Shown piece after piece: positions 50,864 through 62,660 of a DNA stretch of 64,000 nucleotides. Source of the stretch: Segetibacter aerophilus (GTDB lineage Bacteria; Bacteroidota; Bacteroidia; Chitinophagales; Chitinophagaceae); contig NZ_BJYT01000010.1 in the NCBI RefSeq assembly GCF_007991655.1, forward strand, positions 124,001 through 188,000, written 5' to 3'. Positions within the stretch are counted from its first letter, which is position 1. Each line of letters starts with the position of its first letter. The notes under the pieces were generated by a model. The model was given only the letters and a program-made list of their open reading frames with translations. It did not search any database and was not told the DNA's origin. The position numbers and the translations under genes are program-made.

Positions 50864-51793
50864 GTGAATATATTCCTGGTAGGTTTTCTATTGATTGCTT
50901 TTATTTTTTGCGCACCTAAAAAGGTCAAAGCCGGCGATACGTTGTTGTACAACAATAAATATTCTGTTGCATGCCACAACTGTTATCAAAAAAAATATTC
51001 CTCCAGCCTTGAAGAAGCGTTGGCCTATACATCGACTTTAGAACTAGACATTTGGGATTCTCAATATTTCCTGGGTAAGAAAAAATGCTCGGGTACTGAT
51101 TGGTTTGTAAAACACAGCCTTTTTCAGAAAGGCAATAAAAATTGTGCAGGTGGATCTCTTCGTAAATGCCTTATAGAGATAGAGCAATGGACAAGAAAAA
51201 ATCCCGAGCATGAAGTGCTTACAATTTATATAGACAAAAAGGAAGATTGGGGAAGTAAAAAATCTGCTAGAAAACCGCAAGATTTAGATGACCTGATTTC
51301 CTCAATTTTTCCTGCAACAAGTATTTACTCGCCTAAAGAAGTTTTACAGGAAAATAAAAGCTTACGAAATTCAGTGCAAGGGTGTAACTGGCCATCTACA
51401 GAAGAGCTTAAAGGAAAAATTATTTTCGTAATAACTGACGCAACAATACTTACGAGAAAAAATAAACTGCTTGATAAGTACCTAAATAAACAACAAAATA
51501 ACTCCCTGTGTTTTGTTGCTCCGCTCATCAAAAAGAAAAGCGAAATCATAAAGCCTAGAGGCTTATCTACCCAAAATATCTCTAACGTAATTTTCTATAA
51601 TCTCGGCTACAAACACTCAGGACTGTCGTCTGCAATTAGTTCAAGCAACTATATTAACAGGGTTTATAATTCTCCTGAAACATTGGCAACAGTGAATGCG
51701 CTTGCAGACAGAAAAGTAAATTTTATTGCTCTTCACAACTACAAATTAGGAGGCTGTCAACCGATAGTCACAGAGGGAATAAAACAAAATTGA
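50864..51793 (+). CDS. Secreted PI-PLC-like phosphodiesterase
   Basis: A 309-residue exported protein (GTG start, N-terminal hydrophobic signal) of the phosphatidylinositol-specific phospholipase C superfamily, closest in pattern to the Ca2+-dependent PI-PLC C1 group. Visible catalytic residues are His38 (ACHNCY), Glu60 and Asp62 (LELDIWD) as calcium ligands, and His84 (FVKHS). The GSLRKCLIEIEQWTRKN segment and HEVLTIYIDKKEDW are also typical. Lys in the latter may contact the phosphate. It converges on the inositol phosphorylceramide synthase-like gene with a 10-bp gap, so an inositol lipid substrate is attractive, but sequence alone does not prove it. Confidence 0.82.
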   Translation: MNIFLVGFLLIAFIFCAPKKVKAGDTLLYNNKYSVACHNCYQKKYSSSLEEALAYTSTLELDIWDSQYFLGKKKCSGTDWFVKHSLFQKGNKNCAGGSLRKCLIEIEQWTRKNPEHEVLTIYIDKKEDWGSKKSARKPQDLDDLISSIFPATSIYSPKEVLQENKSLRNSVQGCNWPSTEELKGKIIFVITDATILTRKNKLLDKYLNKQQNNSLCFVAPLIKKKSEIIKPRGLSTQNISNVIFYNLGYKHSGLSSAISSSNYINRVYNSPETLATVNALADRKVNFIALHNYKLGGCQPIVTEGIKQN

Positions 51794-51803
51794 GGTAAGG
51801 AGG

Positions 51804-52751
51804 TTAGTCTTGCACAAACTTTTCGACAATCATTGATTGAAACCAACGGTTCGGTACTATGAACCTTTTAAAGGCAAAAATGCCAATAATAGCACAACTG
51901 ATACCACCTAATACATCGAGAATATAATGGTGATTGCTATATACTGCGGCAAACCAAATACCGACAACCACTACGCCAAAGAAAATGTTGATGAGGCCAA
52001 GCCTGTTTTTAATTCCATAATACAATACGATTAGGTTATACGCTGAATGAAGTGAAGGCATGGCGGCAAACACGTTTGAGCTTTTAGCATACAATGCATT
52101 AAAAATACCTGCGTTAAAAAAGTCATCGAACCGGTGCAGGCCGGCAGTATTACCGGGAGTATGAGGATTGAAGTTAAATCCATAAAGCTGAACGTACCAG
52201 GGCGGAGCTGCAGGGTAAACATAATAACCAACAAAGCCAATGAGGTTGACTAACAAAAAGGTTAAGGCAAAATACATGAACTGTTCACGTCTTTTGGTAA
52301 AGAAAAGATACCCTGCAAATACCAATGGAACGGGAACCCAACACAGGTAAAAAACACCACTTAAAATATCAAGTACAGTGTAAGTATTGTGTTGCCAAAA
52401 CTCGTTAGGAGTAAGAATTTGCCCATTTACATGAATACCAAATAATCTCTTTTCAGCATTGTAAAGACTCTGGATGTGAACTGTATTGTAGAGATAATTC
52501 GGAAACGCCTTCATATAATCGAAGATGATCCAGAATATCATAAATACAGAAAAGCCTGTTATAAACTTACGAGTTGAAAATGAGATGTAGTATAACAGGT
52601 TAAAAATTACAACCAGCACCAACTGTTCCGGTTTATATCCAATTAATACTTTCGATAAAAGGAGATACGATAAAGATATTATTGAAGTTAGAAGTATATC
52701 TTTTTTAGCAAATAACCCTGTATATGTTGCCACCTTGGCTGGTTGATACAT
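51804..52751 (-). CDS. PAP2 family protein, inositol phosphorylceramide synthase-like
   Basis: A 315-residue membrane protein with six helices and the PAP2-type motifs AAMPSLHSAYNLIV (C2) and YSNHHYILDVLGG (C3), whose His and Asp form the catalytic triad. AGLHRFDDF and YYVYPAAPPWYVQLYG are in the pattern of aureobasidin-type IPC synthases. By analogy it would move a phosphoinositol head group from phosphatidylinositol to ceramide in the periplasmic leaflet. ATG 52751 shares its A with the stop codon of the hydroxylase gene (TAATG). The frame upstream belongs to that gene's shadow. Confidence 0.85.
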   Translation of the reverse strand: MYQPAKVATYTGLFAKKDILLTSIISLSYLLLSKVLIGYKPEQLVLVVIFNLLYYISFSTRKFITGFSVFMIFWIIFDYMKAFPNYLYNTVHIQSLYNAEKRLFGIHVNGQILTPNEFWQHNTYTVLDILSGVFYLCWVPVPLVFAGYLFFTKRREQFMYFALTFLLVNLIGFVGYYVYPAAPPWYVQLYGFNFNPHTPGNTAGLHRFDDFFNAGIFNALYAKSSNVFAAMPSLHSAYNLIVLYYGIKNRLGLINIFFGVVVVGIWFAAVYSNHHYILDVLGGISCAIIGIFAFKRFIVPNRWFQSMIVEKFVQD

Positions 52752-53371
52752 TATTTCTTCTTTGGAAAATCGGAGTCTAAAATTTTGTCCCACAAAACAG
52801 AACTGACCCCGTAACCTTTGGTTGGGTCGTCGTAATGATGGAGCATGTGATGTTGCTTGATTTTTTTCCAAAAAGAACTTTTAAAATTTGCATGATGAAT
52901 GGCGTAATGTGTCATATCATACACGAGATAACCCAGGATAAAGCCGGGGAAAAAAGCATATAAGTTCACATCCGACAGGAACAAGGAAAACAGAAAGTAA
53001 AAAAGTGCAGCCAATGGAATACTTACAGAGGGAACCATTACCAATCTTTTAGAATCCCTTGGATAATCGTGATGAACACCATGGAAAATAAAATGCAATC
53101 TTAATCCCCATTCTGATTTCGGTACAAAATGAAACAGGTAGCGATGCAGCACGTATTCAGTGGCGGTCCAAACAAAAATTCCTAAAATAAAAAACCCGAT
53201 AAAAGCTGCTGGTGAAATGTTGTGTGAAATTGCTTTATAAATAAAAAAAACGATAGCAGGCCCAAAAATGAATAATGGCACTGAAAAATGAATTTTAGAA
53301 AGACCCTCCAAAAAATCATTTTTAAACATCCTCACAGACTCTCTTGAATTAGAGACATAATTCTTCTTCAT
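52751..53371 (-). CDS. Fatty acid hydroxylase superfamily (FA2H/Scs7-like)
   Basis: A 206-residue membrane di-iron enzyme. The eight-histidine pattern is complete: HRYLFHF, HFIFHGVHHDYPRD, YDMTHYAIHH and KQHHMLHHYDDPTKGYG. Spacing and the YPRD motif match fatty acid 2-hydroxylases of sphingolipids. It has four helices. In this operon it probably adds a hydroxyl to the acyl chain or long-chain base of ceramide. It is coupled to the following PAP2 gene by a one-base overlap and lies 20 nt after DUF4833. Oxygen is required for such enzymes, which suits an aerobic host. Confidence 0.88.
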   Translation of the reverse strand: MKKNYVSNSRESVRMFKNDFLEGLSKIHFSVPLFIFGPAIVFFIYKAISHNISPAAFIGFFILGIFVWTATEYVLHRYLFHFVPKSEWGLRLHFIFHGVHHDYPRDSKRLVMVPSVSIPLAALFYFLFSLFLSDVNLYAFFPGFILGYLVYDMTHYAIHHANFKSSFWKKIKQHHMLHHYDDPTKGYGVSSVLWDKILDSDFPKKK

Positions 53372-53391
53372 ATAAAAAAAGCTTAATAAAC

Positions 53392-61871: not shown

Positions 61872-61950
61872 TATCCAATATTTAAGAAGCCTTGCACATT
61901 TTTCTATTAAAGTATATTATCAGCCATAGTTTACCAATTTCATTTAAAGG

Positions 61951-61972
61951 ATGAAAGATTGTTGTCTTTCAT
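61951..61972. promoter_or_regulatory. Palindrome between tetR and spt
   Basis: Perfect 8-bp arms ATGAAAGA / TCTTTCAT with a 6-nt centre, 80 bp upstream of spt and 88 bp after the TetR gene. It fits a TetR-type operator. A weak promoter (TTGG, 19 nt, TACTTTAA) may follow near the spt start. Confidence 0.5.
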
Positions 61973-62060
61973 AAAGCAAGTGTATGAAACTTAAAAATAA
62001 TGATTATAAGTGTTTTTTTAACCTTTTCAAACTTTAAGTTATTTTCACTCTATCCACACT

Positions 62061-62660
62061 TTATCCTTTAATTCCATCAACCATTATATCTACAAGTACG
62101 TCGGGTCCGTTCTCACAATTACGTACAAACCTTGATGCAGACAGCGGCAATTCAATACCCCTAAATGCTGCTACAAGTGTAAATGAGAATAGCTCTATAT
62201 CTCTTTCTGCCAACTTTTTAAATTCTCCCGTTTGCACACCAACTTTAAGAATTTCTCTTATCAAATCAATTTGCGTTTCATCGTGTTTTTGTTTCAGTTT
62301 TAAAACCACTCCAATATGATTAAAAATATCTTCGTACACTACTGAACTTAGATTATGAAACTTTTCCATCACCCTCGCGCGCGTTCTCGAATACGCTTTC
62401 AGTTTATCTTTTGCCGTTATAGCCATATTAACAGCTTGCCGTGTCAGTCGTAAAAGGTTCTTTAATTCTTCTTCAACAACGGCCTCAAAGATTTCTGTTT
62501 TTCCCTGGAAATAATAATACAAACTACTCTTTCCTTTACCGAGAGAGTTCGCAATATCTTCCATTGTCGTTTTCTTCAAACCATGTTGTGCAAACAAAGT
62601 TTTGGCAGTGGAAAGTATTTCCCTGACCATAAACTCATCTTTTGCAACCTGTTCCAGCAT
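62061..62660 (-). CDS. TetR family transcriptional regulator
   Basis: A 199-residue regulator. The N-terminal helix-turn-helix is in ILSTAKTLFAQHGLKKTTME, then DIANSLGKGKSSLYYYFQGK. The C-terminal 140 residues are a helical ligand pocket with no known family tag. It is upstream of spt on the same strand, so it may repress or sense the sphingolipid operon, for example through an acyl-CoA or long-chain base. It has its own TAnnTTTG box. Confidence 0.88.
   Translation of the reverse strand: MLEQVAKDEFMVREILSTAKTLFAQHGLKKTTMEDIANSLGKGKSSLYYYFQGKTEIFEAVVEEELKNLLRLTRQAVNMAITAKDKLKAYSRTRARVMEKFHNLSSVVYEDIFNHIGVVLKLKQKHDETQIDLIREILKVGVQTGEFKKLAERDIELFSFTLVAAFRGIELPLSASRFVRNCENGPDVLVDIMVDGIKG

Follow-up and report, generated by a model that had tools for sequence, protein, structure and literature searches.

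A 64,000-nucleotide stretch of Segetibacter aerophilus contig 10 (NZ_BJYT01000010.1), hereafter the window, holds a compact series of genes that matches families of ceramide synthesis, ceramide hydroxylation and inositol head-group attachment. The genome (G000) comprises 5.9 Mb in 79 contigs and is estimated to be 100% complete. Ten genes follow one another on the minus strand: spt, coding for serine palmitoyltransferase (SPT), a bCerS-like gene, a cerR-like gene, pgpA, gtrA, a DUF5686 gene, the gene of phosphatidylinositol-phosphate synthase (PIPS), a DUF4833 gene, a gene for an Scs7-like hydroxylase and the gene of a putative inositol phosphorylceramide (IPC) synthase. A preliminary description of this DNA had given the first three genes overlaps of 4 bases each, and the coordinates agree (60660-60663 for spt and the bCerS-like gene, 59539-59542 for the bCerS-like and cerR-like genes). 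The order that it gave next, pgpA and then a tight unit of six genes, was also found, with gtrA starting 453 bases past pgpA. The six genes are placed as it had them, but the open reading frame (ORF) of the IPC synthase begins at a TTG (52871) and runs into the hydroxylase gene, and the likely start is the ATG at 52751. All features are collected in Table 1.

Related loci were compared as 80 named loci, which are the best 80 of at least 545 confirmed candidates. The SPT, bCerS-like and CerR-like genes were contiguous in 53 of them, the bCerS-like gene, a GNAT-family match in the window, standing between the other two. The nearest solved structure by sequence to the hydroxylase was yeast Scs7 (4zr1, E 1.5e-32 over 187 residues), and the histidine motifs LHRxLFH, HFxxHGxHH, Hx3HH and Hx2HH align with it. 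Scs7 is a ceramide fatty acid hydroxylase, and the match bears out the earlier label of fatty acid 2-hydroxylase-like enzyme; the protein is a predicted 2-hydroxylase of the ceramide acyl chain, the hydroxyl position being assigned from its family.

The head-group enzymes had come with a test set beforehand, namely that the CDP-alcohol phosphatidyltransferase might prove to be PgsA and the PAP2 protein an undecaprenyl phosphatase. The obtained results showed otherwise for both. The transferase scored far higher with the BT1523 model (NF052561) than with the pgsA model (396 vs 33 bits), it matched the mycobacterial PIPS structure 6wm5 (E 2.8e-21), and it carries the D-G-x2-A-R motif that had been described, followed by a downstream D-x3-D (residues 79-104). 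The best matches of the PAP2 protein were the phosphoinositol dihydroceramide synthase model (346 bits) and AUR1 (9vj3, E 7.7e-15 over 245 residues), the next being the lipid phosphate phosphatase YodM/PgpB (E 0.007). A legend in PMC4634129 names S132, K135, R155 and R195 of MtPIPS as predicted inositol-phosphate contacts. The first three align with S142, R145 (lysine replaced by arginine) and R165 of the window PIPS, and R223 is proposed as the counterpart of R195. All four residues were invariant in the nine PIPS sequences compared, two of which come from genomes without myo-inositol-phosphate synthase (MIPS). The window PIPS is 84% identical to that of S. koreensis, and its nearest relatives among the matches listed were all from Segetibacter, with best-segment identities of 94% and 85% for two metagenome-assembled genomes (MAGs) and 87% for S. 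koreensis. Genome G172, listed under the same genus, carries its MIPS match on the contig and at the coordinates recorded for the genome of the S. koreensis locus.

Table 1. Features of the ceramide and inositol head-group locus in the window (positions count from its first nucleotide).
Feature	Position	Strand	Basis
TetR-family regulator, upstream of spt	62061..62660	-	PF00440 57.6 bits
spt, serine palmitoyltransferase	60660..61871	-	NCBIfam NF047600 750 bits, cut-off 640
bCerS-like GNAT acyltransferase	59539..60663	-	PF00583 28.6 bits, cut-off 20.7
cerR-like NAD-dependent epimerase/SDR reductase	58556..59542	-	PF01370 112 bits and position
Empty MIPS slot, 42 bases	58514..58555	-	Comparison with related loci
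PgpA-family phosphatase, predicted phosphatidylinositol-phosphate phosphatase (BT1525-like)	58037..58513	-	PF04608 126 bits
GtrA-family membrane protein (BT1524-like)	57206..57583	-	PF04138 70 bits
CarboxypepD_reg and DUF5686 protein, perhaps BT1527-type	54652..57198	-	PF18939 185 bits, PF13715 43.5 bits
PIPS, phosphatidylinositol-phosphate synthase (BT1523-type)	53912..54646	-	NF052561 396 bits, cut-off 350
DUF4833 protein	53392..53931	-	PF16117 167 bits; signal-like start by eye, periplasmic by eye
Scs7-like fatty acid hydroxylase, predicted ceramide 2-hydroxylase	52751..53371	-	PF04116 71 bits; Scs7 4zr1
PAP2_3 IPC synthase (BT1522/AUR1-like), 315 aa	51804..52751	-	NF052609 346 bits, cut-off 480; AUR1 9vj3
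PI-PLC-like protein, signal-like start by eye	50864..51793	+	PF16670 52.8 bits, cut-off 29.9

Conservation of the gene order had been put forward as a check, and all ten genes were found in the same order in 50 of the 80 named loci, with the hydroxylase present in 68 and the IPC synthase in 79. These loci belong mainly to Chitinophagaceae and Pedobacter, together with some Cytophagales-type genomes, and the clustering of ceramide and inositol genes is not particular to the window genome. Among 195 genomes of the family, a PIPS at the cut-off and a strong IPC-synthase match occurred in exactly the same 34, which is beyond chance, while two more genomes had only weak IPC-synthase matches (3.7e-5 and 5e-4). 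MIPS was likewise detected in 34 of the 195, and 29 of those have PIPS. Among 395 genomes of the class, PIPS (E 1e-30) was present in 27, 24 of them with MIPS. Family and class together gave 57 genomes with PIPS, seven of which lack MIPS: G000, G077, G499 and G594 (99-100% complete) and G122, G147 and G153 (81-85%). The reverse state, MIPS without PIPS, was seen in G098, which is of the same genus as the window. The operon can split, since in three genomes of one genus (G001, G101 and G174) about 20 kb separate MIPS from the segment that runs from PIPS to the IPC synthase; the ceramide genes were retrieved beside MIPS in two of these. The operon was also observed on contigs labelled Beijerinckiaceae (L145) and Azovibrio (L154), which are probably misbinned or mislabelled MAGs, the L145 contig being equal in length (8196 bases) to one contig of the family genome G145.

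The gene that is missing from this otherwise conserved series is that of MIPS. It stands upstream of pgpA, and after cerR where cerR is present, in 62 of the 80 related loci, S. koreensis (L146) included, whereas the corresponding slot of the window is 42 contiguous bases in which no MIPS remnant was found. The preliminary description had noted that MIPS lies outside the window; we agree, and a search of the whole genome with two MIPS models (PF01658 and PF07994) returned no match. Eighteen named loci lack MIPS at the locus. In four of these (L158, L163, L187 and L210) the contig ends before the slot, and their genomes hold none, ordinary MIPS, a divergent form called MIPS2, and ordinary MIPS, respectively. 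The 14 visible empty slots comprise eight whose genomes carry MIPS2 at another place (84-86 bits), seven of them from named Pedobacter and one from an unassigned MAG of the same clade, and six in genomes without any MIPS (two Segetibacter, two Ferruginibacter, one Chitinophagaceae and one Mucilaginibacter MAG). Completeness estimates were available for the genomes of the group search; G195-G215 have none, so the absence of MIPS is less secure there.

MIPS2 is only 23% identical to the operon-type MIPS over 182 residues, is detected by PF01658, and presumably resembles actinobacterial Ino1. It was also present, away from the operon, in the Chitinophagaceae genome G067 (L126), at 80-82% identity to the Pedobacter-type form (L239-L246), which suggests horizontal replacement. 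A shared neighbourhood was considered and discarded, as MIPS2 itself was the only gene of L126 to recur in at least two of the eight Pedobacter-type stretches. Remnants of the lost gene were seen in other lineages. In G594 (L278, about 6268-6375), a genome otherwise without MIPS, a search of 3 kb recovered the last 36 MIPS residues immediately ahead of pgpA (44%, E 3.7e-6), and a fainter remnant, interrupted by stops, was seen in L177 (E 0.004). On a tree of the operon genes, with support taken from a quick search, the no-MIPS state needs eight changes, at least six of them forced by well-supported branches. When only four well-assembled genomes were kept as no-MIPS rows, five changes remained over all states, two due to MIPS2 and three being losses; this recount warned of two long branches joining (L176 with L094). 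L158 (G197) duplicates the contig of L095 (G153) and was dropped from the recount because its slot lies off the contig, and L179 and L181 are one strain with identical tree columns. Judged from these sequences, MIPS loss recurs across lineages.

The genes that remain are nevertheless conserved. Ratios of non-synonymous to synonymous substitution (dN/dS) were calculated between the window and its closest relative, the Segetibacter MAG L141, both without MIPS. The values were 0.009 for SPT, 0.034 for the bCerS-like gene and 0.059 for the cerR-like gene; among the head-group genes they were 0.015 for gtrA, 0.016 for PIPS and 0.042 for the IPC synthase. The hydroxylase gave 0.037, DUF4833 0.11 and the phospholipase-like gene discussed below 0.044, while dS was not estimable for pgpA. 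This demonstrates that strong purifying selection has acted on PIPS and the IPC synthase between these two relatives, neither of which has MIPS.

The DUF4833 gene overlaps that of PIPS by 20 bases in the window, and the two form one open frame in 47 of the 76 named loci showing both, being separate in 29. Its structure model is confident (pLDDT 93) and mostly beta, and a fold search with a threshold of E 0.001 matched nothing in the PDB. The Chitinophagaceae genome G018 (L128 with L340) has neither a PIPS match at the cut-off nor an IPC-synthase match, and DUF4833, DUF5686 and the hydroxylase stay there beside the ceramide genes and MIPS. A nearby cluster combines a HAD protein, a CDP-alcohol transferase, an NTP transferase and GtrA, resembling in its families the alternative cluster of B. 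vulgatus and Prevotella, and the head-group module of G018 looks swapped. This suggests that DUF4833 may serve the lipid and not the chemistry of PIPS. The DUF5686 gene is perhaps of the BT1527 type, a likeness drawn by description, BT1527 being described as carboxypeptidase-regulatory-like in PMC9246714. In L141, a MAG contig, the DUF5686 gene between gtrA and PIPS is apparently shrunk to a short weak match (109 codons, 49%, dN/dS 0.40), through loss or misassembly.

Two further genes that the preliminary description had left unnamed flank the operon. One codes for a protein like phosphatidylinositol-specific phospholipase C (PI-PLC) and converges on the 3' end of the operon, with 10 bases between it and the stop of the IPC synthase. 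The protein matched PF16670, the Ca-dependent PI-PLC family, above its cut-off and aligned with 5fyo, which we take to be a Pseudomonas PI-PLC, over 265 residues and nearly its whole length (E 4.6e-37), with matching His and Glu-x-Asp catalytic motifs. Such a gene also stands beside the operon in L141, whereas it is not beside the operon in L142 or in S. koreensis; its part in the pathway is uncertain. The other, a TetR-family gene, has relatives upstream of spt in both L141 and L146 and is a candidate regulator of the operon. The Pfam scan beyond the operon covered five window genes. A promoter scan counted 37 sites where shuffled sequence averaged 38.9, and for terminator-like sites the figures were 18 and 10.3 (sd 3.3).

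Family-level identities of the genes, their conserved order, the loss of MIPS and the selection on what is left are what the sequences show; from the enzyme families we infer the following reactions. SPT would condense serine with an acyl thioester to a product that the bCerS-like protein would N-acylate and the CerR-like protein would reduce, while the Scs7-like enzyme would hydroxylate the ceramide acyl chain at position 2. By relation to the genes of Bacteroides thetaiotaomicron, PIPS would couple CDP-diacylglycerol with inositol phosphate, the PgpA-family protein would strip the phosphate to leave phosphatidylinositol (PI), and the AUR1-like enzyme would transfer phosphoinositol to ceramide. 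The preliminary description had held that the locus unites both pathways and gives hydroxylated IPC; the enzyme families are as it thought, but with MIPS gone the view that the locus gives this lipid by itself is not supported. Because the usual MIPS is gone and no replacement was found, the head-group substrate would come from elsewhere or be a different one. In our judgement the combined operon is probably a working pathway to IPC, possibly 2-hydroxylated, whose inositol phosphate would not come from MIPS but most likely from the uptake and phosphorylation of environmental inositol.

Several observations weigh against this proposal. The bCerS and CerR labels derive from fold family and position alone. 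The IPC synthase stays below the cut-off of its model, which none of the 195 family genomes reached, and the PgpA-family protein passed the Pfam model with only 65 bits in the NCBIfam PgpA model (cut-off 226). Added inositol was taken up for lipids to a very minor extent in B. thetaiotaomicron, as reported in PMC9246714, so salvage is not automatic. An inositol kinase was sought through PfkB matches, which were counted in 11 genomes and compared by eye in six, from a pattern-filtered ORF list missing some members, and none was particular to the MIPS-less Segetibacter. Searches of selected families, transporters not being among them, identified no inositol-phosphate source in the window genome.

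The absence of MIPS can also be understood as a switch of head group, with the same enzymes having taken another polyol phosphate such as glycerol 3-phosphate, which would place phosphoglycerol or another head on ceramide. PIPS and a PssA-like protein (99.5 bits, cut-off 107) are the only CDP-alcohol transferases of the window genome, which has no PgsA, so that PIPS is the sole candidate for polyol-phosphate transfer; in S. koreensis, where MIPS is present, a third transferase occurs that is PgsA/ClsA-like (54 bits, below the cut-off). A probable phosphoglycerol dihydroceramide is also described for Porphyromonas gingivalis in PMC9246714. We nevertheless regard the switch as unlikely, as PIPS retains the proposed inositol-phosphate residues and its high identity to the S. 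koreensis enzyme. The transferase count points the same way: across 24 genomes there were two transferases in 18, three in four and one in two, and two is usual either way (9 of 11 genomes with PIPS and MIPS, 8 of 10 with PIPS only). A takeover of the PgsA role was rejected on the same ground, as transferase number is unlinked to MIPS loss, though the S. koreensis PgsA/ClsA-like gene is absent from the window genome. That a non-homologous enzyme makes inositol phosphate in the cell is rather unlikely. Replacement does happen, as the unlinked MIPS2 of the Pedobacter clade and of G067 without an operon MIPS illustrates, but MIPS2 would be detectable by PF01658 and is absent here. When the ORFs of 13 stretches surrounding operons without MIPS were compared all against all, no convincing candidate recurred between lineages, the matches being antisense ORFs and one ABC-transporter ATPase (window 43595-44326), 39% like one in L094.

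A decaying operon, in which the loss of MIPS came first and the making of inositol lipids has ceased, would fit the repeated loss of MIPS and the apparent reduction of DUF5686 in L141; the very low dN/dS of PIPS, IPC synthase and hydroxylase and the intact frames of the window make it improbable. The PI-PLC-like enzyme might in turn supply inositol phosphate by cutting foreign phosphatidylinositol. It is kept under selection beside the L141 operon, and PF16670 is enriched in PIPS-positive genomes of the family (5 of 34 vs 2 of 161, Fisher p 0.002). However, four of the five PIPS-positive carriers have MIPS, and their PI-PLCs match the family much more closely than that of the window. The phospholipase product is 1D-inositol 1-phosphate, which is not the isomer used by PIPS, and we hold such a supply to be very improbable. 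As a general substitute for MIPS the enzyme was rejected, since it is not beside the MIPS-less L142 operon and was not found in G077. Finally, with an assembly of 79 contigs MIPS might be present and lost in a gap. The slot is contiguous, two further Segetibacter MAGs have an empty slot with no MIPS found, and the single-contig genome G499 also has PIPS without MIPS, so there is hardly any chance of this.

Returning to a pathway fed by salvaged inositol, the recurrence of the loss carries a wider implication. Several lineages of soil Bacteroidota could depend on environmental inositol for their own inositol sphingolipids, with independent MIPS losses, an assembly line under selection and some route of uptake and phosphorylation; we advance this tentatively. 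Such dependence would tie the membranes of soil Bacteroidota to the inositol of plants, fungi or neighbours. Bacterial inositol sphingolipids have been worked out mainly in gut Bacteroides, and here MIPS was naturally removed several times with the rest kept. If inositol lipids are still made, a supply route is present that Bacteroides lacks; an extra inositol-supply function is predicted because B. thetaiotaomicron uses very little added inositol. The compact operon further brings the genes for making ceramide, hydroxylating it and attaching the head group together on a single DNA segment, and it draws attention to DUF4833 as a PIPS partner that is still unstudied. Searches of the open-licence literature on inositol sphingolipids in Chitinophagaceae, Chitinophaga, Pedobacter and Sphingobacterium, on bacterial ceramide synthase, on inositol auxotrophy and on the hydroxylase yielded no report of the operon or of the MIPS loss, which is not proof of novelty.

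The closest known system is BT1522-1526 of B. thetaiotaomicron, as described in PMC9246714 and PMC8791184. Shared are the putative IPC synthase, PIPS, GtrA, a PgpA-type phosphatase (BT1525 being the phosphatidylinositol-phosphate phosphatase; PMC9246714) and a carboxypeptidase-regulatory-like neighbour (BT1527). The window differs in having no MIPS, in its linkage to genes of ceramide synthesis and of a hydroxylase, and in the added DUF4833; spt lies elsewhere in B. thetaiotaomicron (BT0870) and in the same operon here. Deletion of BT1522, BT1523, BT1525 or BT1526 each abolished IPC, and the last three also PI (PMC9246714). PMC8791184 agrees on BT1522, BT1523 and BT1526, a BT1525 deletion not having been obtained there, and for GtrA (BT1524) the two papers differ, with no effect by thin-layer chromatography against lower IPC. 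Removal of MIPS in gut Bacteroides abolishes or nearly abolishes inositol sphingolipids (PMC9246714, PMC8791184). The cluster of B. vulgatus and Prevotella, also proposed for phosphoinositol lipids and located beside MIPS, uses an NTP transferase, another CDP-alcohol transferase and a HAD protein in place of PIPS, PgpA and IPC synthase (PMC9246714). Among solved structures, those of yeast Scs7 and AUR1 come nearest in sequence to the hydroxylase and the IPC synthase, respectively, the substrates of the bacterial enzymes being predicted. The Spt, bCerS and CerR enzymes of Caulobacter are of the same three types (PMC11087976), which in the window are adjacent and overlapping, bCerS and CerR being assigned by family and position. 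In PMC11334938, spt, bCerS and cerR are said, after earlier work, not to be close together in sphingolipid-producing Bacteroidota; in contrast to that statement, the ceramide trio is contiguous in most of the related loci compared here.

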